Assembly (NCBI GenBank): GCA_913061075.1
Contig: CAJXSK010000002.1
Location: 124,001-188,000 of the forward strand
Origin: an uncultured Piscirickettsiaceae bacterium
GTDB lineage: Bacteria > Pseudomonadota > Gammaproteobacteria > Methylococcales > Cycloclasticaceae
Reading direction: 5' to 3'
DNA: 64,000 bases
Shown piece after piece: positions 5,461 through 64,000 of the stretch; the stretch's first letter is position 1; every line of letters starts with the position of its first letter. The translations under genes and the position numbers were made by a program. The notes under the pieces are model-generated. The model searched no databases, was not told where the DNA came from, and saw nothing but the letters and a program-made list of their open reading frames with translations.

Positions 5461-6660
5461 ATGATTATTGCACCTAAAATACGTGGTTTTATTTGTACAA
5501 CAGCACACCCAATTGGCTGTGCTGCTAACATCAGAGAACAAATCGAGTTAACACAGCAACAAGGGGCGATTGAAAATGGCCCTAAAAATGTGTTGGTTAT
5601 CGGCTCTTCTAGTGGGTATGGAATGGCATCAAGAATTTCAGCTGCCTTTGGTTCAGGTGCCTCAACTATTGGTGTGTTCTTCGAAAAACCGGGTACCGAA
5701 AGAAAAACAGGGTCAGCGGGCTGGTATAACACTGCTGCGTTTGATGCCGAAGCAAAAAAGGTTGGGCTTTATGCAAAGCATATCAATGGTGATGCATTTT
5801 CGAACGAAGCTAAGCAAAAAACAATTGAGTTAATAAAAGAAGACTTGGGTCAAATTGATTTAGTGGTCTATTCGCTAGCATCGCCTGTACGTAAAGTACC
5901 AGGAGATGATGCTGTGACACGTTCATGCTTAAAGCCAATTGGTGAGACGTATCGTTCCACTGCTATTGATACGAATAAAAACATTATCATTGAGGCCGAA
6001 GTTGAGCCGGCAACAGAACAGGAAATACAAGACACTGTGACTGTGATGGGTGGCGAAGACTGGGAGTTGTGGATGACTGCTCTAAGTGAAGCGGGTGTGT
6101 TATCAGACGGTTGCAAGTCTGTTGCATACAGTTATATTGGCACCTCTATCACGTGGCCTATTTACTGGGATGGCGCGTTAGGAAAAGCTAAAATGGATCT
6201 TGATCGAGCCGCCGGTACGATTGATACCCGTTTAAAAGCGATAAATGGCGCAGCTAATGTGGCGGTTTTAAAATCCGTTGTAACGCAAGCCAGCTCGGCT
6301 ATTCCAGTGATGCCTTTGTATATATCGATGGTGTTTAAAATCATGAAAGAAGAAGACATTCATGAGGGTTGTATTGAGCAAATAAACCGCTTATTCAGGA
6401 CACAGTTATATAATAATACGGTAGACCAGAATTTGGATGATACAAATCGAATTCGCCTTGATGATTGGGAATTGCGTGATGATGTGCAACAAAAATGTCG
6501 TGATATATGGCCGCAAGTTACCACTGAGAACCTTTTCGAACTCACGGACTATGCTAGTTATAAAAATGAATTTTTAGAATTATTCGGCTTTAATAAAGAC
6601 GGCGTGAACTACGATAATGATGAAAACTCTGAAGTAAATTTCAACGTCGAAACACTATAA
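5461..6660 (+). CDS. fabV: Enoyl-[acyl-carrier-protein] reductase FabV
   Basis: A 399-residue trans-2-enoyl reductase of the FabV type, which completes each cycle of type II fatty-acid elongation using NADH in the cytoplasm. The N-terminal [20 protein letters not shown] and the nucleotide-binding [16 protein letters not shown] (residues 44-59) are diagnostic. The active-site pair Tyr235 and Lys244 forms the FabV Y-x8-K arrangement within [10 protein letters not shown]. The conserved GWYNTAAFD and LASPVRK segments are also present. The length matches known FabV proteins. FabV is known for low sensitivity to triclosan. No fatty-acid genes adjoin it; mipZ follows after 56 bases. Confidence 0.96.
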
Positions 6661-6716: not shown

Positions 6717-7508
6717 ATGAAAGATAAAAGCGCACATATTATCGTTTTAGGTAATGAAAAAGGTGGTACGGGTAAGTCAACGATGGCAATGCACATTGTT
6801 GTTGGCTTGCTAGAAGCTGGAAAAAAAGTAGCGGTCATTGATTTAGATTCGCGTCAGAAAAGTATCGCACGCTATATTCAAAACAGACAGACCTTTATGG
6901 CAAAGGGCGGCGCAAAGGTTGCCATGCCAAAATTTACCGTATTGACCCAGTCAGATGCGCCGGTTCTTAAAGACTGTGAAAAAGAAGATCAAGTTAATAT
7001 TGTTAAGGCCTTGGATGTATACCGTAAAACAGTCGATTTTATCGTTTTTGATTGTCCCGGAAACGATACTTATCTTTCTCGCTTAGCGCATGCATTGGCG
7101 GACACATTAGTAACACCGCTAAATGATAGTTTTGTTGACTTGGATTTATTAGGTGAGGTGTCACCAATAGATTTCGAAGTTAAAAAACTAAGTTTTTATG
7201 CCGAAATGGTGTGGGATAGCCGTAAGTTTAGATCAGCTAGTGGCAAGCCACCTATGGACTGGGTGGTAACGCGTTCTAGGTTGGCGTCATTAAGCTCAAG
7301 AAATAATAAACGGGTACATATGGCGTTAGAGTCATTGCAAAAACGTATTATGTTTCGCCATGTACCCGGTTTGTACGAACGGGTTATCTATAAAGAGTTG
7401 TTTCCGAGTGGTTTAACCATTTTAGATCTCGAAAAAGTGAACAGCATGTCGCACGTTGCGGCAAGACAAGAAGTTAGGTCGCTTATTGAGAGCTTAAATT
7501 TGTTGTGA
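6717..7508 (+). CDS. mipZ: MipZ-like division-plane positioning ATPase (ParA superfamily)
   Basis: A 263-residue P-loop ATPase of the MinD/ParA group that matches MipZ over its full length. The deviant Walker A is KGGTGKST (residues 15-22), switch I is IDLDSRQKS (41-49) and Walker B is FIVFDCPG (108-115). MipZ-specific blocks follow: VTPLNDSFVDLDLLGEV, then MDWVVTRSRLASL, then VIYKELFPSGLTILDL, and a C-terminal HVAARQEVRSLI. In Caulobacter, MipZ binds ParB and DNA and inhibits FtsZ, leaving assembly to occur at midcell. The function here is inferred from that similarity. The family is best known from Alphaproteobacteria, so its presence here is unusual. It is followed four bases later by the SprT-like gene. 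Confidence 0.85.
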   Translation: MKDKSAHIIVLGNEKGGTGKSTMAMHIVVGLLEAGKKVAVIDLDSRQKSIARYIQNRQTFMAKGGAKVAMPKFTVLTQSDAPVLKDCEKEDQVNIVKALDVYRKTVDFIVFDCPGNDTYLSRLAHALADTLVTPLNDSFVDLDLLGEVSPIDFEVKKLSFYAEMVWDSRKFRSASGKPPMDWVVTRSRLASLSSRNNKRVHMALESLQKRIMFRHVPGLYERVIYKELFPSGLTILDLEKVNSMSHVAARQEVRSLIESLNLL

Positions 7509-7515
7509 TTTCTTG

Positions 7516-8031
7516 ATGGGGAGTTTCGTGCTTGATGATGTTCAACAAGATCTTGTTATCCAAGAAACGAAAAAGTACATTGCGTTAGCCAGTCAGCTAT
7601 ATCAACAAGAGTTCGCCTATGTGCCCGTTAAGTTTGACCTTACCGGACGTACTATTGGTATGTATAAGCACATTAAAAAAGGCCGAGTTATTCGATACAA
7701 TTCACACGTTTTTGCTAAATACTTCGAAGAAAATATTCGAGATACCGTGCCGCATGAAGTGGCGCATTATATTGTTGATATGCAATACGTGAAAAAAGGT
7801 ACGCGCCCCCATGGGGCAGAGTGGAAGTCTGTTATGGCAGACTTCGGTGCAGATAATAACCGTACTGCAAATTTTGATCTATCCGATATACCTCAACGCC
7901 AATATTCGACCATTCCATATGGTTGTAGTTGCCAGCAACATCAATTGGGCGTTCGTCGACACAACAAAATAATAAAACGCCAAGCACAATATTTTTGCCG
8001 TGAATGTGGTGATGTTTTAAAAGCGATATGA
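7516..8031 (+). CDS. SprT-like zinc metalloprotease-fold protein
   Basis: A 171-residue SprT-family protein. The zinc-protease motif is HEVAH in the stretch TVPHEVAHYIVD, followed by the family's RPHGAEWKSVM block. A C-terminal zinc ribbon is visible as the CSC and CRECG cysteines. SprT proteins resemble eukaryotic Spartan, a protease acting on DNA-protein crosslinks, but the bacterial role is unsettled. The start is ambiguous: ATG 7516 is used, while GTG 7528 has a GGGGAG sequence four bases upstream. The gene begins 7 bases after mipZ and its stop overlaps the next gene's start in ATGA, so mipZ, this gene and the GIY-YIG gene look like one operon. Confidence 0.88.
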   Translation: MGSFVLDDVQQDLVIQETKKYIALASQLYQQEFAYVPVKFDLTGRTIGMYKHIKKGRVIRYNSHVFAKYFEENIRDTVPHEVAHYIVDMQYVKKGTRPHGAEWKSVMADFGADNNRTANFDLSDIPQRQYSTIPYGCSCQQHQLGVRRHNKIIKRQAQYFCRECGDVLKAI

Positions 8032-8270
8032 CTTGGTATGTGTATATTATTAAATCTAGCGACGATAGCCTTTATACTGGCATTACGACAAACTTAGGTC
8101 GGCGTTTCCAGCAGCATCTAACAGGTAAGGGGGCGAAATATTTTTTTGCGCGTAAGCCAGTAAAAATTGTTTTTTCAGAAAGCCATACCAACCGAAGTAT
8201 GGCGAGTGTGCGTGAATACGAAATAAAACAACTGACTCGAAAACAAAAAGAGCAGCTCATCCTAAGTTGA
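8028..8270 (+). CDS. GIY-YIG domain protein, YhbQ/UPF0213-like
   Basis: An 80-residue single-domain GIY-YIG protein. The signature strands are WYVYIIKSSDDSLYTGIT (residues 2-19), giving the YVY and YTG halves of the motif. They are followed by the conserved Arg of LGRRFQQH, then KGAKYF and the REYEIK helix that carries the catalytic-type glutamate. The length fits the small YhbQ/UPF0213 group, some of which have nuclease activity on damaged or branched DNA. It overlaps the SprT-like gene by four bases (ATGA), implying coupled translation. Confidence 0.9.
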   Translation: MTWYVYIIKSSDDSLYTGITTNLGRRFQQHLTGKGAKYFFARKPVKIVFSESHTNRSMASVREYEIKQLTRKQKEQLILS

Positions 8271-8321: not shown

Positions 8322-8756
8322 ATGACAGACTCATTAAAAATCGTATGCCCGCACTGTGATGCGGTCAATAAACTACCTGCTGATAAACTAAGCGCAGGTG
8401 GCAGCTGCGGTAAGTGTAAAAAGAAACTGTTTGCTGGGAAACCGGTAACGTTAGCGTCTGCTAATATACAAAGGCACCTAGAACAAAGCGATATTCCCGT
8501 GGTAGTGGATTGTTGGGCGGGTTGGTGTGGGCCGTGTAAGTCTTTTGCTCCCACGTTTAACCAGGCTGCTAAAAAGTTAGAACCTGCTTACCGTTTTGCT
8601 AAATTTGATACTGAAAAAGAACAGCGTTTAGCAACGCGTTTTAAAATTAAAAGTATTCCAACGTTATTGGTGTTTAAAAAGGGTAAAGAAGTGGCAAGAC
8701 AAGCAGGTGTGATGAGTTTGTCTCAGTTTCAAGCGTGGCTAAAACCGTACAGCTAA
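8322..8756 (+). CDS. trxC: Thioredoxin 2 (zinc-ribbon thioredoxin)
   Basis: A 144-residue cytoplasmic thioredoxin of the TrxC type. Its N-terminal extension carries two CxxC pairs, CPHC and CGKC (residues 8-11 and 30-33), which bind zinc in the family and are released on oxidation. The thioredoxin domain follows with active site WCGPC in CWAGWCGPCKSFAP and the cis-proline strand KSIPTLLVF. TrxC reduces protein disulfides, for example in ribonucleotide reductase and under oxidative stress. It is co-directional with the GIY-YIG gene, 51 bases downstream, and convergent with hslO. Together with hslO and msrA it makes a short block of redox-protection genes. Confidence 0.95.
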   Translation: MTDSLKIVCPHCDAVNKLPADKLSAGGSCGKCKKKLFAGKPVTLASANIQRHLEQSDIPVVVDCWAGWCGPCKSFAPTFNQAAKKLEPAYRFAKFDTEKEQRLATRFKIKSIPTLLVFKKGKEVARQAGVMSLSQFQAWLKPYS

Positions 8757-54984: not shown

Positions 54985-55440
54985 TTGTTTAGAGGGGTTA
55001 ATAATGTCACGTTAGATGCAAAAGGGAGATTGTCTATCCCTACGCGTTACCGTGCCCAATTATCAGCTTCTTGTGACGGGCAAATGGTCATGACTGTTGA
55101 CCGTGAGCATAGCCTTCTACTTTACCCGTTACCTGTTTGGGAAGATATCGAACGCAAATTAATCAAGTTACCTACCTTGAATAAGCAAGCAAGGCGCTTG
55201 CAGCGATTGCTAATAGGTCATGCGACGGAGTGTGAGCTAGATAGCCAAGGCCGCGTGCTTGTGTCACCGCCGTTACGTGATTTTGCGGAATTAGATAAAA
55301 AAATAGTGATGATTGGTCAAGGTAATAAGTTTGAAATATGGAATGAACAAACTTGGACAGTTAAGCGTGATATGTGGTTTGAGGAAGAGAGTGAGGAAGA
55401 GGGTGATTTGTCACCCGAACTTGGCGTTTTGTCGCTGTGA
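54985..55440 (+). CDS. mraZ: Transcriptional regulator MraZ
   Basis: A 151-residue MraZ with two SpoVT/AbrB-like swapped-hairpin repeats. It starts [22 protein letters not shown] and has the second [16 protein letters not shown] in its C-terminal half, the paired DxxGR/K-V motifs that bind DNA. MraZ is the first gene of the dcw cluster and represses or modulates the cluster's own promoter. The start is TTG 54985 with AAAAGGGG six bases upstream, and the protein length and N-terminus match the family exactly. The stop overlaps the rsmH GTG by four bases. Confidence 0.96.
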
Positions 55441-56375
55441 TTGTGGCTAACAATGAGCACAAGGCTGTTCTTCTCAATGAAGCGGTAGATGGATTAATTC
55501 AACATGCAGATGGGGTTTTTATCGATGGGACCTTTGGACGTGGTGGGCATAGTGGGAAAATATTGCAGGCATTATCTGCAAAGGGTCGATTGCTCGCGAT
55601 TGATAAGGATATCGATGCAATGACGTCAGTAAACGCCAAAACGTATTTATTAGACCCAAGGTTTGAGTTTGAGCGAGGCAGTTTTGCTAGGCTCCAAGAG
55701 TTTGTAGAAAAGCGTGATTTGACTGGCAACGTTAATGGCATTCTGCTTGATTTGGGCGTGTCTTCTCCGCAACTAGACGTTGCAGAACGTGGTTTCAGCT
55801 TTATGAAAGATGGGCCGTTGGATATGCGTATGGATACAGCAAGTGGTGAGTCTGCAGCTGAATGGCTTGCTCATGTGGATGAGCTTGACCTGGTTAAGGT
55901 GTTGCGCGATTACGGCGAAGAAAAGTTCGCGCGAAAAATAGCCGCCAATATTGTTGCAGAGCGAGATAAAAATGAAATATTAACAACGGCTCAATTGGCA
56001 ACTGTTATTAGTGATGTTGTTAAAAGCCGTGAGCCTGGCAAGCATCCAGCAACGCGTAGTTTTCAAGCGATAAGAATTAAAGTAAATAACGAGCTGGGTG
56101 ATTTAGAGGCAGTGCTAGAACAATCACTTGAGGTGTTGGCGGAAGGTGGTCGATTGGTAGTCATTAGCTTTCACTCATTGGAAGACAGAATAGTGAAGCG
56201 TTTTATGCGAAAAGCATCGAAAGGCGATGTGGCGCCGCGTAAATTGCCGTTGCCTTTGGATGCTAAAGGGCCGACGCTAAAAACAATGGGTAAAGCGATT
56301 AAGGCATCAAGTGCTGAGTTGGCTGGCAATGTCCGTAGTAGAAGTGCTGTGTTACGAATAGCGGAGAAGTTGTGA
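55437..56375 (+). CDS. rsmH: 16S rRNA N4-methylcytosine 1402 methyltransferase
   Basis: A 312-residue RsmH (MraW), which methylates the base of C1402, the same nucleotide whose ribose is modified by RsmI from this window. Motifs are [13 protein letters not shown] at the start, then [16 protein letters not shown] (SAM loop), then [22 protein letters not shown] and [18 protein letters not shown], with [13 protein letters not shown]. The start is GTG overlapping the mraZ stop (GTGA), and the stop likewise overlaps ftsL. Confidence 0.97.
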
Positions 56376-56647
56376 TTGATAGGTCAAAAATGGGATTGAT
56401 GATTATTTTGCCATTGGTTGTTGCGTCAGCGCTGATGGTTGTTTACGTGAAATACCAGTCACGTGTTTTGTTTACTCAGTTAAAGCAAGAAACAAAAGCC
56501 CAAGATGTATTAGAGGTTGAGTGGAGCCGTTTGCAATTAGAGCAGACCACATGGTCATCAAATGCGCGAATTGAAAAGATTGCTAAAAAACAATTAGGCT
56601 TGCAGGCGCCAACAGCCGAGCAAGTTATATTTATTAAAATGAAATGA
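56372..56647 (+). CDS. ftsL: Cell division protein FtsL
   Basis: A 91-residue bitopic division protein with a membrane helix ([18 protein letters not shown]) and a periplasmic leucine-zipper-like coiled coil, [29 protein letters not shown]. It acts with FtsB and FtsQ to activate septal synthesis. It starts at GTG overlapping the rsmH stop (GTGA) and overlaps ftsI at ATGA. Identity rests on topology, length and its dcw position, since the family is poorly conserved. Confidence 0.92.
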
Positions 56648-58377
56648 TACATCAGCGACTAAAAGATAATGCAAACAAAGTGGTGGTGCCGGAGCTTTCC
56701 GGGCGTCGTCGCTTTATTTTAGCGTGCTTTATGTTAGCGATGTGTGGGTTGATTTGGCGGGCTGTTGACCTTCAGGTGCTGAATAACAGTTTCTTACAGA
56801 ATCGTGGCGATGCGGTTCATCTTAGCAATATCAAAATTCCAGCGTACCGTGGGCAAATATTAGATCGGGATGGGCATGCTCTGGCTATAAGTGCGCCCGT
56901 TAGTTCTGTTTGGGTTAATCCTCAAGAATTCGATGCTAATGGCCAAGGTAAGAAGCTAGCCAGTATGCTTGAGTTGGGGCAAAAAGCGTTAACGAAAAAA
57001 ACGGATAAAACATCTGGGCGAAGGTTTGTGTATCTACGCCGACATATGGATCCTCAGCTTGCAGAGCGCATTGAAGACCTGGGTGTTGTTGGAGTGTATG
57101 CGCAAAAAGAATATAGACGCTTCTATCCAGATGGTGAAGTGGCTGCACATGTGGTTGGGTTTACTAATGTGGATGGCGAAGGCCAAGAAGGTTTGGAGCT
57201 TGCATACGAGTCGCGGCTACAAGGTGTGTCGGGAGTAGAGCAAGTGTTACGTGACGGCAAGCGGCGCATGGTGAAGCATGTGGAAAGTGTTAGAGAGCCG
57301 GTGCCGGGTAAGGATGTTAAATTATCAATCGATCGCCGTTTGCAATACTTGGCTTATAGAGAATTAAAAGCAGCTGTTGCTCAGCAAAAAGCTAAATCGG
57401 GCTCATTGGTATTAATGAATCCGCTAACAGGTGAAATACTTGCTGCGGCAAATCAACCAGCATTTAACCCTAATGAGCGTTCAAAGCTGACTGCCAGCCG
57501 GGTACGAAACCGTGCGTTTGTTGACGTATTTGAGCCTGGATCAATAATGAAACCGTTTACTGTTGCGGCAGGGATGATGTCGGGTTTGTTTGATACTTCA
57601 ACCATTATCGATACAACGCCGGGATACATGAAAGTCGGGCGTAGTCAGGTTCGTGATCACCGTAACTATGGAAAAGTTGATCTTGCTACATTGCTTTTAA
57701 AATCAAGCAATGTGGGGTCGAGCAAGATTGCACTAGGCATTCCGCCGGAAGGCATGTGGGGCCTATTGAATCGGTTAGGGTTTGGGGCAAAGACGGGTAT
57801 AGATTTTCCTGGTGAAGCAAAAGGAAAATTAGTTGGCTTTGAGCGCTGGCGTCCTATTGAAAGGGCAACCTTGTCATTTGGTTATGGTCTGTCAAGTTCA
57901 GTTCTTCAGGTGGCTCAGGCCTATAGTGTTCTTGCAAATAATGGCGTGTTAATGCCGGCGACGTTGCTTTCTGATGGCGTTTCTGAGGCTGAGAGAGTCA
58001 TACCGGTTGAGATTTCAAAAAGCATTCGTCATATGTTACAGGGCGTTGTTAGTAAGGTGGGTACGGCACCCCGAGCGAAAATCCAAGGATATACAGTAGC
58101 GGGTAAAACAGGGACGGTTAAAAAGGCAGTTGCTGGTGGATATTCGGATGATAAATACTTAGGTCTGTTTGCAGGCATGGCGCCAGCAAAAAACCCAAAA
58201 CTAGTGATGGTTGTGATGATTGATGAGCCGAGTGCAGGTGATTATTACGGTGGTCTAGTCGCTGCACCTACATTTTCAAGAGTGATGGCTGGTGCGCTAA
58301 GATTGATGAATGTCGCCCCGGATAATGTAGAAGAGCCGGTGACGCTTGTTGCGTTTAATCAACGAGGCGCTCAATGA
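56644..58377 (+). CDS. ftsI: Septal peptidoglycan transpeptidase FtsI (PBP3)
   Basis: A 577-residue class B penicillin-binding protein. It has a short cytoplasmic tail, one membrane helix (about residues 22-43), a pedestal domain and a transpeptidase domain. The active-site motifs are SIMK (S300-K303) in EPGSIMKPF, SSN near residue 355 and KTG in VAGKTGTVKKA. RGQILDRDG near residue 69 is the usual class B entry motif. It is the main target of aztreonam-type beta-lactams in the family. The start ATG overlaps the ftsL stop (ATGA), and its stop overlaps murE the same way. Confidence 0.97.
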   Translation: MIHQRLKDNANKVVVPELSGRRRFILACFMLAMCGLIWRAVDLQVLNNSFLQNRGDAVHLSNIKIPAYRGQILDRDGHALAISAPVSSVWVNPQEFDANGQGKKLASMLELGQKALTKKTDKTSGRRFVYLRRHMDPQLAERIEDLGVVGVYAQKEYRRFYPDGEVAAHVVGFTNVDGEGQEGLELAYESRLQGVSGVEQVLRDGKRRMVKHVESVREPVPGKDVKLSIDRRLQYLAYRELKAAVAQQKAKSGSLVLMNPLTGEILAAANQPAFNPNERSKLTASRVRNRAFVDVFEPGSIMKPFTVAAGMMSGLFDTSTIIDTTPGYMKVGRSQVRDHRNYGKVDLATLLLKSSNVGSSKIALGIPPEGMWGLLNRLGFGAKTGIDFPGEAKGKLVGFERWRPIERATLSFGYGLSSSVLQVAQAYSVLANNGVLMPATLLSDGVSEAERVIPVEISKSIRHMLQGVVSKVGTAPRAKIQGYTVAGKTGTVKKAVAGGYSDDKYLGLFAGMAPAKNPKLVMVVMIDEPSAGDYYGGLVAAPTFSRVMAGALRLMNVAPDNVEEPVTLVAFNQRGAQ

Positions 58378-59900
58378 TGGCCGCGCAACATATTGAATCA
58401 GGGCTTTCTTTAAGGGACTTATTGTCAGGTATTGCTGAAGTAGACGTTGATGTGGATGTTTCTATGTTAACGCTTGATGCAAGAGAAATAGCAATTGGTG
58501 GTTTGTTTTTGGCAATAAGTGGCTCACAAAATCATGGTATGCAGTATGTAAGGCAAGCAATAAAGAATGGTGCGGCTGCTATCATTTTTGACCCAAAATC
58601 TGGCGGAAACTTATTGTCTAAAAAGTTCGTTAATCGCGATGATATCGTGCTGCTTGAGTTGAGTGATTTGTCTAACTATGTCAGTGAAATAGCGTCCCGT
58701 TTTTATCAGTATCCGTCAAAAGAGACTTCTGTTGTTGGAATTACTGGGACTAATGGTAAAACATCGATTAGCCACTTTATGGCTCAAGCAATGGGTATAC
58801 GTCAGCCATGTGGGGTGATTGGAACGCTTGGCTGGGGCTTTTTGGGGCGTTTGACTAAGACGGTTAATACGACGCCAGATGCGGTGTCTGTTCAGTGTGG
58901 TTTATCTCAATTGGTCAATGAGAAGGCGCAAGCAATAGCGATGGAAGTATCGTCGCATGGTTTGCAGCAACATCGGGTTGCTGCGGTAGAGTTTGATGGG
59001 GCGGTGTTTACGAATTTAACACACGACCATCTTGATTATCATGGGTCAATGGAAGCGTACGGTGAGGCCAAGTTAACATTATTTAAAAGCCCAACGTTGA
59101 AGTTTGCTGTGGTTAATTTGGATGATAGCTACAGCTCAGTCATAGTAAAAACGCTTGCTTCACCAGTAACGCTGTTGGGTTATACGCGTTTGTCGAAGGT
59201 AAATGAAAGAGTGAACGCGCTTTTGCATATTACAAATGAAGTTGTTGATAAAGATGGGTTGCGTTTTTCACTAAACTTCCAAGGTCGGCAATATGATGTC
59301 CGTACTGATTTACTGGGCCGTTTTAATATTGATAATGTTACTGCAACACTGGCTATTTTGTTTGCTCAAGGTTGGGGGGTGCAAGAGGCGATAGAGGCGG
59401 TCGAAGGTCTCGAAAGTATACCTGGGCGAATGGAGTGTATTTCGCTTGATGATTCATTGCCTTTGGTGATCGTTGATTTTGCTCATACACCTGATGCGTT
59501 GGCGTCGGTGTTAAAGAGTGTGCGTGAGCATTGTGATGGTAGGTTAATGGTGGTGTTTGGTTGTGGTGGCGATAGGGATTCGAGTAAAAGAACATTGATG
59601 GGTCAGGTAGCAGATGCTCATGCGGACTCAATTATCGTGACTAATGATAATCCTCGTCATGAGAATGCTGAGAAAATTGCTGAAGAAATAATGCTTGGCG
59701 CGGGAGCAGAAGCTGAGGTTCTTTTAGATAGAGAAAGTGCTATCAATAAAGCTGTTAACTCGGCATCGGCGGATGACGTTGTGGTTGTCGCGGGGAAAGG
59801 CCATGAGGGCTTTCAGCTTATAGCAGATAAAAAGCTACCTTTTAATGATGCTGATGTTGTGCGTTCAGCGCTTCAACGCCGTTTAAAAGGAGGCGTGTAA
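58374..59900 (+). CDS. murE: UDP-MurNAc-tripeptide ligase MurE (meso-diaminopimelate adding)
   Basis: A 508-residue Mur ligase adding the third stem amino acid. The ATP loop is GITGTNGKTSISH and NTTPDA is conserved. The motif DNPR in TNDNPRHENA identifies meso-diaminopimelate as substrate rather than lysine. The carbamylated-lysine region is YGEAKLTLF. The length is usual. Two ATGs are adjacent at the start (58374, 58377), the first overlapping the ftsI stop. It ends one base into the murF start. Confidence 0.97.
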   Translation: MMAAQHIESGLSLRDLLSGIAEVDVDVDVSMLTLDAREIAIGGLFLAISGSQNHGMQYVRQAIKNGAAAIIFDPKSGGNLLSKKFVNRDDIVLLELSDLSNYVSEIASRFYQYPSKETSVVGITGTNGKTSISHFMAQAMGIRQPCGVIGTLGWGFLGRLTKTVNTTPDAVSVQCGLSQLVNEKAQAIAMEVSSHGLQQHRVAAVEFDGAVFTNLTHDHLDYHGSMEAYGEAKLTLFKSPTLKFAVVNLDDSYSSVIVKTLASPVTLLGYTRLSKVNERVNALLHITNEVVDKDGLRFSLNFQGRQYDVRTDLLGRFNIDNVTATLAILFAQGWGVQEAIEAVEGLESIPGRMECISLDDSLPLVIVDFAHTPDALASVLKSVREHCDGRLMVVFGCGGDRDSSKRTLMGQVADAHADSIIVTNDNPRHENAEKIAEEIMLGAGAEAEVLLDRESAINKAVNSASADDVVVVAGKGHEGFQLIADKKLPFNDADVVRSALQRRLKGGV

Positions 59901-61300
59901 TGATGGGCGCTATGGATTTACGGCAATTAGCACACGTTGTAAACGGGTCATTGAAAGGTGAAAACGTAAGTTTTTCCAACATTTGTACAGACACGCGGTC
60001 GTTGCAAAAAGGGGATTTGTTCTTTGTTCTAAAGGGCGACAGTTATGACGCCAATGATTTTATTGAAAATGCCAAAGCAAGTGGGGCGGTTGCTGCAGTG
60101 GTCAGTAAAGATTGCGACGTGTTGCCAACTGTGTTGGTTGATGACACAACGGCAGCGTTAGGCAAATTAGCACAAGCCGTTCGAATGAAAGCTGATGCGC
60201 CAGTTGTTGCAATCACGGGAAGCAATGGTAAGACCAGTGTCAAAGAGATGCTGTTGGCGATTCTAAAGCAATCTTTCAACGTACTGGCCACTGAAGGAAA
60301 TTTGAACAACCATATTGGCGTGCCGTTAACGTTACTGCGTCTAACAAAGGAGCACCAAGTAGCCATCATAGAAATGGGTGCGAGCCATGCGGGCGAAATA
60401 GCGTATTTATGTGAGCTTGCAAAACCAAATTTCTCAGTTATCAACAATATTGGCGAAGCTCATTTAGAAGGTTTTGGGAGTGTGGAAGGTATTGCTAATG
60501 CTAAAGCGGAGATTGTAGAAGGTTTATCTGCGAACGGCGTTGCGATTTTGAATCAGGAAGATGCTTGGTATGAGACTTGTTTAGAGAAAGCTGTTGATAG
60601 GTCGGTGCTTAGTTTTGGTTGGTCAGATAATGCATCGGTTTGGTCGGAGCAATCAAACGTTCGTAGTCAACTGATTGGTGGCAGGTTCGAGATATCATTC
60701 ACATTACATTACCAACAACAATTTGTAGATGTTCAGCTCAACCTATTGGGTGATCACAATGTTTTGAATGCATTAGCAGCGGCTAGTCTTGCGATAGCGC
60801 TAGGTGTTTCGTTGCCAGACATTGCAACGGGGTTAGCAAAGGTAGAGCCCGTTGCTGGGCGGATGCAGCCGCTAGTTGGAGTGAACGATTCGTTAATTGT
60901 AAACGACTGCTATAACGCGAGCCCGACCTCTTTTAAAGCGGCGTTGTCTTGTGTTGTCGGCTTAGATAAGCCTGTTTGGTTAGTGCTTGGTGATTTTGCG
61001 GAATTGGGTAAGAGCGCGGCTGATATTCATCAGCAGTTAGCTGGCTTAATAGCAAATGAAAAAGTGGAAAGAGTTTTTGCAGTCGGGGAGTATATGAAAT
61101 TGACAGTGGAAGCACTTAATTCACGTGAAGAGGGGAAGCGCGTGGTTGCTGAGCACTTTACAAGTAAGGCAGCATTGTCTGGTGCAGTCAAACGTGATTT
61201 AGAGATAGATTGTGTTGTGTTAGTCAAAGGCTCTCGCTCTCAAGGGCTTGAAGACGTGGTCGGTCAGTTGGTTAAGCAGGAGGAAACGCCATGTTGTTAA
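59900..61300 (+). CDS. murF: UDP-MurNAc-tripeptide D-alanyl-D-alanine ligase MurF
   Basis: A 466-residue Mur ligase that attaches D-Ala-D-Ala to the tripeptide in the cytoplasm. It has the N-terminal [19 protein letters not shown] substrate domain, [14 protein letters not shown] (ATP loop), [16 protein letters not shown] and [10 protein letters not shown] blocks. Towards the C-terminal domain come [15 protein letters not shown] and GDFAELG. The start overlaps murE by one base (TAATG); a second ATG lies at the next codon. It overlaps mraY by ten bases. Confidence 0.97.
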
Positions 61301-62373
61301 TGTTATCAGAGTGGCTTACACAGTATGAAAGTGGCTTTCAGGTTTTTCAGTACCTGACGCTTCGTTCCATTTTGGGTACGCTAACCGCTTTGTTTATTGC
61401 GTTTCTGGTAGGGCCGACGATGATACGTCGGTTGACTTATCATAAGGTAGGTCAAGCCATTAGAGATGATGGGCCGGAGTCACATTTCACTAAAGCGGGT
61501 ACGCCGACAATGGGCGGTACATTGATTTTAGTGGCAATCGCTTTAAGTACGCTGTTATGGGCGGATTTAAGTAATCGATATGTGTGGGCGGTGCTGATAG
61601 TGACGATGTTGTTTGGCGTCATTGGGTTCATTGATGATTATAAAAAAGTTGCGTTGCAAAACCCAAAAGGCTTGTCGGCTGGTAAAAAATATTTAGGGCA
61701 ATCAATTGTAGGCTTAGGTGTTGCGCTGTTTCTGTATTACACCGCGGCATCGCCCGTTGAAACGACGTTGTATGTGCCTTTCTTTAAGGATGTCAGCTTC
61801 CAACTGGGTTGGTTGTTTATTCCTTTGACTTACTTTGTAGTAGTAGGAACGAGTAATGCGGTTAATTTAACAGATGGGCTAGATGGTCTGGCTATTATGC
61901 CGACGGTTTTGGTGGCGGGTGCACTAGCCATTTTTGCGTATTTATCAGGAAATTATAAATTTGCGGAATATTTATCAATTCCTCATCTCAGAGAGGCGGG
62001 TGAGTTGGTGGTTTTCTGTGGCGCTATTGTCGGCGCAGGCATGGGGTTTTTATGGTTTAACGCTTACCCAGCAATGGTCTTTATGGGTGATGTGGGCGCG
62101 CTAGCTTTAGGCGCAGCGCTTGGGTTGCTAGCGGTGTTAGTGAGGCAAGAGCTGGTATTGGTCATTATGGGTGGGGTTTTTGTAATGGAAACGTTGTCAG
62201 TGATGATTCAAGTGGTCTCATTTAAGTTGACAGGTAAGCGAATCTTTAGAATGGCGCCTATTCACCACCACTTTGAGTTGAAAGGGTGGCCAGAGCCGCG
62301 GATTATTGTTCGTTTTTGGATTATTACCGTTATTTTGGTTTTGATCGGCTTATCAACCTTGAAGATTAGATAA
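61291..62373 (+). CDS. mraY: Phospho-MurNAc-pentapeptide translocase MraY
   Basis: A 360-residue inner-membrane enzyme with ten helices that transfers phospho-MurNAc-pentapeptide to undecaprenyl phosphate, making lipid I. Conserved motifs are [21 protein letters not shown] (paired aspartates), [31 protein letters not shown] and [13 protein letters not shown] strong ribosome binding site, AGGAGGAAACGCC, lies inside the end of murF before the ATG. The next gene, murD, follows a few bases downstream. Confidence 0.98.
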
Positions 62374-62388
62374 AAGGTGGGCATAGCG

Positions 62389-63771
62389 ATGAAAAATGTA
62401 GCAACTGAACAGCATCAAGGTTTAACCGAATTAGGTTTAACGGATGCGGCTGCACGTGTGTTGATCGTTGGTTTGGGTGTGACGGGACTATCAGTTGCAC
62501 GTTTTCTTAATAAACACCAAATTCAGTCGGCAATTGTGGATAGTAGAAAAGCTCCGCCAGGGTTAAAAGAGCTAGAAGAGTCCGTTGAAGAAATGGCTGT
62601 GTTTACGGGTGGTTTCGATGAAGAGGCATTTGAAGCGGCAACTCACCTAGTGGTAAGTCCGGGAATTAGTCTTGAGCAAAAAGATATTGTGAAGGCAACT
62701 CAACGCGGTGCACATATTTTGGGTGATATAGATATTTTTGCAGCGTGCGCAGATGCGCCGGTTGCTTGTATAACGGGGTCGAATGGTAAAAGCACGGTAA
62801 CAACCTTGTTGGGATTGATGGCTGAGGCGTCAAAGCTTGATGTACGAGTTGGCGGCAATCTTGGTACGGCAGCCTTAGATTTAATAACTGAAAAAACGCC
62901 TGATTTGTATATTTTGGAACTGTCTAGTTTTCAATTAGAAAGAACAACCCAGCTTAATGCTTCTGTCGCAACCGTATTAAACATCAGTGCGGACCATATG
63001 GATCGTTATGAAGATATGGCTGCATATGCAAAAGTGAAGGCGTCTGTGTTTCGGGGCAATGGTGCAATTGTATTGAATCGTGCAGATGACGTTGTGATGG
63101 CGATGCAAGATGAAACTAGAGCAGGTATTACATTTGGCCTAGATGCGCCTGAGGCAGAGCACTACGGCGTGATGGCTAAAGAGAATGTTGACTATTTGGT
63201 TAAGGGTGATGAATACGTAATGCCAGTGCCAGAATTAAAAATAAAGGGTTCTCATAATATTCAGAATGCACTGGCCGCTATTGCAATGGCAGATGTTTTG
63301 AAAATCCCCGTGACAGGTCAGAAACAAGCATTAAAGGAGTTCGCTGGATTGGCGCATAGAACACAATGGGTGGCAGAAAGTAACGGACGGGTTTGGATAA
63401 ATGATTCAAAAGCCACCAACCCTGGTGCGACCTTAGCAGCAATAGAAGGGTTGAAAGGCTCCATTATATTGATAGCTGGAGGGGATGCAAAAGGCGCTGA
63501 CTTTAGCTTACTCAAAAATGCCATTCAACATCATGTGGTACATGTCGTGTTAATGGGGCGGGATGGGCCTGTGCTCAAAGAGCAGGCAGTAAATGATGTG
63601 AGTTGTACGTTTGTTGATTCAATTGAACAAGCAGTTCAATTGGCAGATAAATTGGCGAAGCAAGGCGATACTATTTTATTGTCACCTGCTTGCGCTTCAT
63701 TAGATCAATTTGCTAATTACCAAGAGCGTGGAGAACGTTTTGTGGCCGCTGTTGAGAGGTTGCACGGATGA
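62389..63771 (+). CDS. murD: UDP-MurNAc-L-alanine:D-glutamate ligase MurD
   Basis: A 460-residue Mur ligase adding D-glutamate. The N-terminal domain has VLIVGLGVTGLSVARFL, and the ATP loop is CITGSNGKSTVTTLLG. ELSSFQLE and the NDSKATNPGATLAAI block follow, then ILIAGGDAKGADFS and LLSPACASLDQFANYQERGERF. ATG 62389 is preferred because AAAAGGTGG lies eight bases before it; a GTG four codons upstream sits on top of that site. The stop overlaps the ftsW start (ATGA). Confidence 0.97.
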   Translation: MKNVATEQHQGLTELGLTDAAARVLIVGLGVTGLSVARFLNKHQIQSAIVDSRKAPPGLKELEESVEEMAVFTGGFDEEAFEAATHLVVSPGISLEQKDIVKATQRGAHILGDIDIFAACADAPVACITGSNGKSTVTTLLGLMAEASKLDVRVGGNLGTAALDLITEKTPDLYILELSSFQLERTTQLNASVATVLNISADHMDRYEDMAAYAKVKASVFRGNGAIVLNRADDVVMAMQDETRAGITFGLDAPEAEHYGVMAKENVDYLVKGDEYVMPVPELKIKGSHNIQNALAAIAMADVLKIPVTGQKQALKEFAGLAHRTQWVAESNGRVWINDSKATNPGATLAAIEGLKGSIILIAGGDAKGADFSLLKNAIQHHVVHVVLMGRDGPVLKEQAVNDVSCTFVDSIEQAVQLADKLAKQGDTILLSPACASLDQFANYQERGERFVAAVERLHG

Positions 63772-64000
63772 GTGTAGCGATGGGCAACCAAGAGCATTCG
63801 GCATATTTGACTCGCCGCCAACCTTACTATGTTGATGGCTGGTTTTTGTTTTCGGCCTTAAGTTTATTAGCGCTGGGTTATGTGATGGTGGTGTCTGCAT
63901 CCTTGCACTTAGGCGAAAGAGTATATACCAATATAACGCATTACCCGTTGCGCCAGTTTGTGCACATTGTATTGGGATTAGTGATGGCGTTTGTTTTGGC
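63768..64000 (+). CDS. ftsW: Septal SEDS glycosyltransferase FtsW, N-terminal part (cut by window end)
   Basis: The first 77 residues of FtsW. A cytoplasmic polar leader is followed by WFLFSALSLLALGYVMVVSAS, the typical first helix, with the HYPLRQFVHIVLGLVMAFV second helix reaching the window end. FtsW polymerises lipid II with FtsI at the septum. The ATG overlaps the murD stop (ATGA), and its place after murD is the normal dcw order. The catalytic loops lie beyond the window. Confidence 0.93.
   Translation, partial: MSVAMGNQEHSAYLTRRQPYYVDGWFLFSALSLLALGYVMVVSASLHLGERVYTNITHYPLRQFVHIVLGLVMAFVL

Follow-up and report, generated by a model that had tools for sequence, protein, structure and literature searches.

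An intact MipZ ATPase in Min-less Cycloclasticus and its probable role in division-site placement

The gene at positions 6717–7508 of the window, a 64,000-nucleotide stretch of a Cycloclasticus chromosome (Gammaproteobacteria, marine oil-degrading), raises the question of whether MipZ, described as alphaproteobacterial in reviews (PMC3910319, PMC4429545), is present in this genus as a genuine family member and, if so, what it does there. The literature searched contained no report of MipZ in Gammaproteobacteria and no paper joining Cycloclasticus with MipZ. The assignment of the host to Gammaproteobacteria in the first-pass annotation holds: the closest MipZ copies all lie within the window's own genus, and one same-genus genome (G050) has exactly the same MipZ sequence as a Cycloclasticus MAG (L033), which identifies the genus as Cycloclasticus. 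The genes bearing on the question are as follows.

5461–6660, + strand: fabV, enoyl-ACP reductase (NCBIfam FabV, 696 bits); upstream, 56 bp before mipZ, and conserved in the genus
6717–7508, + strand: mipZ, a 263-aa MipZ ATPase with the Walker-type P-loop KGGTGKST (Pfam, PDB sequence matches, key residues, structure)
7513–8031, + strand: SprT-like zinc metalloprotease family protein (Pfam SprT-like, 53 bits); directly downstream of mipZ in the unit
8028–8270, + strand: GIY-YIG domain protein (Pfam GIY-YIG, 72 bits); 4-bp overlap with the SprT-like gene
8322–8756, + strand: thioredoxin TrxC (NCBIfam TrxC, 156 bits); downstream neighbor
54985–64000, + strand: first part of the dcw (division and cell wall) cluster, from mraZ to ftsW (open reading frames; names from order and sequence)

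The window gene is a true, full-length and intact MipZ. Its open reading frame starts with ATG and encodes 263 amino acids, including all three sequence blocks quoted in the first-pass annotation (PLNDSFVDLDLLG, MDWVVTRSRLA and ELFPSGLTILDL). Pfam MipZ (PF09140) matches the protein with 344 bits (E 5e-103) over profile positions 1–260 of 262, and the runner-up family, AAA_31, scores 51 bits; because the PF09140 cut-off of 20.7 is lax and is also passed by MipZ-less control genomes, it is the score margin and coverage that decide, not the pass itself. No NCBIfam equivalog claims the protein: the top-scoring one, a ParA model, reaches 74 bits where 180 are required, and the MinD model gives 28 bits against a cut-off of 213, so that the protein falls outside MinD. 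Comparison with PDB sequences by phmmer returned MipZ 2xj4 at E 2e-69 and the best ParA at 3e-6, with bit scores of 237 for MipZ and at most about 30 for ParA chains. Over 256 aligned positions, the protein is 48% identical to Caulobacter MipZ. The possibility that the protein is the chromosomal ParA was rejected, as a separate parA adjoins parB on contig 6 of the same genome (L002/L143). An orphan ATPase of ParA type, about 250 aa long, is encoded on the minus strand of contig 3 (L004; G000:C3:130102-130665), with no parB in a 3-kb stretch around it.

The predicted structure agrees with this assignment. An AlphaFold2 model computed from 32 aligned MipZ sequences reached a mean pLDDT of 87.7 and a pTM of 0.88. 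The three MipZ crystal structures were the top Foldseek matches (4e-28, versus 2e-11 for the closest non-MipZ structure), and VIA-align superimposed them with Z scores of 33.0 (2xj9), 32.4 and 30.3 over 252–253 residues; the next family, ParF, gave Z 22.7 over 202 residues, and MinD gave Z 20. MipZ is distinguished from Soj and MinD by a beta hairpin, formed by a loop and a small beta sheet that lie between helices 6 and 7 (PMC3355305). In the model, this MipZ-specific hairpin is predicted as strands 146–148 and 155–158, splitting one helix in two and flanked by helices 139–142 and 160–174. The claim that the protein resembles MipZ along its full length is thus borne out by profile, sequence and fold alike.

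Functional residues were compared across 25 gammaproteobacterial and 59 other MipZ sequences mapped on the Caulobacter protein, for which residue roles have been described (PMC3355305, PMC7229837). In the window protein, K13, G14, K18 and D42, which serve ATPase activity and dimerization, appear as K15, G16, K20 and D44, and they are invariant across all 25 gammaproteobacterial and 59 other sequences; loss of dimerization residues, which the first-pass annotation named as evidence against its reading, is not seen. Mutation of R194, R198 or R221 all but abolishes DNA binding by Caulobacter MipZ (PMC7229837), and these strongest DNA-binding arginines are present as R195, R199 and R222. Among the six lesser DNA-binding sites, K197 and L237 are kept, R196, R219 and L248 are replaced by N, Y and M, respectively, and R242 aligns to a gap; the R219 position is S or G in most other MipZ sequences. 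The substitutions R196A, R219A and L248A give faint ParB foci in Caulobacter, where these residues may help ParB binding, and because all three are changed here, the ParB contacts may differ in Cycloclasticus. Eight positions differ consistently between the gammaproteobacterial and the other MipZ sequences.

Phylogenetic analysis, conducted without the MipZ of R. sphaeroides and MipZ1/MipZ2 of M. gryphiswaldense, placed the protein among MipZ and apart from ParA and FlhG, the comparison proposed at the outset. In an outgroup-free tree, 27 gammaproteobacterial MipZ sequences split from 59 others on a branch with support of 98/93; because they form their own clade, the gammaproteobacterial MipZ sequences are an old and distinct lineage. 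This lineage may derive from a single transfer out of Alphaproteobacteria or from a more ancient ancestor, and either transfer or loss may account for its spread among Gammaproteobacteria. A tree including the genome's own ParA, the ParA-like protein and FlhG as outgroup held all 86 MipZ rows together (100/96), with outgroup branches so long that the root within MipZ is untrustworthy, and placed three other-class sequences inside the gammaproteobacterial set. These intruders, two labeled Kordiimonadaceae/Alphaproteobacteria (L035, L037) and one from another class (L113), are donor-side candidates for transfer.

Within the genus the gene is retained and its surroundings are fixed. An order-level sample of 301 genomes included 18 from the genus, 16 of which encode mipZ, among them all 12 that are at least 87% complete; the two that lack it, at 83% and 73% completeness, yield no ParB match either. 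As judged from coding sequence, mipZ is under strong purifying selection, with dN/dS of 0.03 to 0.10 in the three computable pairs and dS saturated in the others. The order fabV-mipZ-sprT-GIY-YIG-trxC is maintained across the genus, with the SprT-like gene adjoining mipZ at all genus loci and trxC without a match in two short stretches, and no MipZ locus compared outside the genus shares it. The tight unit and non-alphaproteobacterial context noted previously are therefore both upheld, the former by a 4-bp gap between mipZ and the SprT-like start and an overlap of the next two genes at 8028, and the latter by the neighbor comparison. The SprT-like protein scores 117 bits against the NCBIfam SprT family, under its cut-off of 175, and SprT-like proteases are not known to act in division. 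A functional link of the SprT-like and GIY-YIG genes to MipZ was set aside as evidence, since in the loci compared they are never neighbors of MipZ elsewhere in Gammaproteobacteria or in other classes; they are probably transcriptional neighbors only. Division genes lie on the same 339-kb contig, which bears the dcw cluster; the cluster runs past the end of the window to ftsA and ftsZ, with ftsZ at G000:C2:195361-196521, 65 kb from mipZ, encoding an FtsZ with the GGGTGTG motif (L144:9361-10521).

Turning to the division-site systems of the host, MinC is absent from the window's own genome, from all 18 genus genomes (0/18) and from both genomes with MipZ in a second family of the same order, and is encoded in 17 of 18 MipZ-less genomes drawn from six further families (p = 0.036, Fisher test by family). 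MinD above cut-off was found in none of seven genus genomes tested, the window's own included, and in all five order controls. SlmA above cut-off was absent from all 22 genomes searched, order controls included, and so does not discriminate. The link between MipZ and loss of Min is strong within the order but reflects few independent events, the 18 genus genomes counting as one and the second MipZ-bearing family possibly being a sister lineage. The first-pass annotation had left it that the lineage uses, or also uses, MipZ for division and had suggested searching for minCDE and parB; as the genus lacks MinC and the seven tested genomes lack MinD, this can be narrowed to use instead of Min.

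The partners that a MipZ system would require are encoded in the genome, which has ParB, parS and FtsZ. The parA-parB pair on contig 6 is separate from the window gene, and ParB was found in 15 of the 18 genus genomes, the three without it being incomplete. Two parS sites lie 621 bp apart on contig 5 (G000:C5:23981 and 24602), and this spacing recurs in four relatives, three from the genus and one an order control (G013, G019, G035 and G003 listed); its constancy suggests that both sites lie inside one conserved gene. No parS was found within 39 kb of parAB or in the window. The 621-bp pair also occurs in a MipZ-less genome of the order and, in the window's own genome, is located away from parAB.

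Across the class, MipZ was found in 8 of 370 sampled gammaproteobacterial genomes (about 2%), representing 7 of 274 genera, and MinC in 166 of the 370; their exclusion at this level is not significant (p = 0.30). Both proteins are encoded in two genomes from other families, G434 (L031), in which MinC and MinD are adjacent, and G517 (L030), which possibly represent an intermediate or dual-system state. The remaining 204 genomes have no MinC match, and most of these lack MipZ too. Because about half of the sampled gammaproteobacterial genomes have neither MinC nor MipZ, Min absence alone does not prove replacement. One MipZ-bearing genome that is 95% complete (G421) gave no match to the ParB HTH, which may have been missed in an assembly of 300 contigs; a genuine absence would make this a case of MipZ without ParB.

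We propose that division-site placement in Cycloclasticus is probably carried out by MipZ instead of MinCDE, by means of a ParB-anchored gradient. By analogy with the mode of action in Caulobacter (PMC3355305), we infer that the protein binds ParB and FtsZ, forms such a gradient and is depended upon by the cell. ParB on origin-proximal parS would capture MipZ monomers, as known from Caulobacter, and promote ATP-dependent dimers; these would attach to neighboring nucleoid DNA irrespective of its sequence and keep FtsZ from polymerizing, with ATP hydrolysis giving back monomers. The resulting gradient would have its maximum at the origins and its minimum at midcell, where the Z ring would form. 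As to origin, the chances are evenly balanced that MinCDE ceded Z-ring placement to a distinct MipZ lineage of Gammaproteobacteria, both in Cycloclasticus and, independently, in a few further families of the class; this lineage would have used the resident ParB and FtsZ, with G434 and G517 as intermediates.

The main rival is a role of the kind described in Rhodobacter sphaeroides, in which MipZ has ParB as a monomer partner and acts at midcell on Z-ring assembly and stability with no polar gradient. The R. sphaeroides protein, 44% identical to Caulobacter MipZ, appears essential and localizes to midcell (PMC6315104, PMC7022226), and this precedent, together with a sequence that cannot separate the two modes, lends the alternative some weight; it would nonetheless need another positioning cue, as Min is absent and no SlmA is recognizable, and we consider it unlikely.

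Somewhat less likely still is repurposing, in which the MipZ fold would now serve a different ParA-like function, such as chromosome or protein positioning, with no action on FtsZ. ParA/MinD ATPases often take on new tasks, the neighbors SprT, GIY-YIG, FabV and TrxC are unconnected with division, and the eight consistent differences could be read in the same light; against this stand conservation over the full length with domains neither gained nor lost, the strong purifying selection, and the loss of MinC and MinD in the same lineages. Recent import from an alphaproteobacterium, or contamination, leaving a gene with no settled role, would fit the frequency of MipZ in other classes, which account for 105 of the 106 MipZ-bearing genomes among 397 sampled across the phylum. 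The neighbors are the same genus-wide, including in two single-contig genomes, the GC content of mipZ (41%) is close to that of the window (42%), and the gammaproteobacterial copies form one clade apart from the 59 others; on synteny, GC and tree, contamination or recent transfer was rejected, and we regard it as extremely improbable.

In Cycloclasticus, one division-site system appears to have given way to another. A Min-less genus with an intact MipZ, beside Min-keeping relatives of the same order, constitutes a natural experiment, opening the questions of whether MipZ replaces Min, whether adaptation of ParB and FtsZ is required, and whether both systems can coexist. Experiments are feasible because laboratory work on Cycloclasticus strains and their breakdown of aromatic hydrocarbons already exists (for example, PMC8547461).

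Among known systems, the closest is Caulobacter crescentus MipZ (PDB 2XIT, 2XJ4, 2XJ9), with which the window protein shares full-length homology (48%), the fold and MipZ-only hairpin, the ATPase and dimer residues, and a genomic setting with ParB/parS and FtsZ and without Min. It differs in its gammaproteobacterial host, in the changes or gap at R196, R219 and R242, in a shorter loop near residue 243, and in the location of the gene between fabV and sprT. MipZ of R. sphaeroides and MipZ1/MipZ2 of Magnetospirillum gryphiswaldense belong to the same family and are ParB-interacting regulators of division (PMC6315104, PMC7022226), but are alphaproteobacterial, unlike the window host. MinD likewise belongs to the P-loop ATPase superfamily and guides Z-ring placement, but is only about 20% identical to the window protein and acts through MinC and MinE, with MinC and MinD absent here. 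Chromosomal ParA (Soj) shares the superfamily, the ParB partner and a DNA-binding dimer, but in this genome that role has its own parA beside parB, distinct from the window gene.
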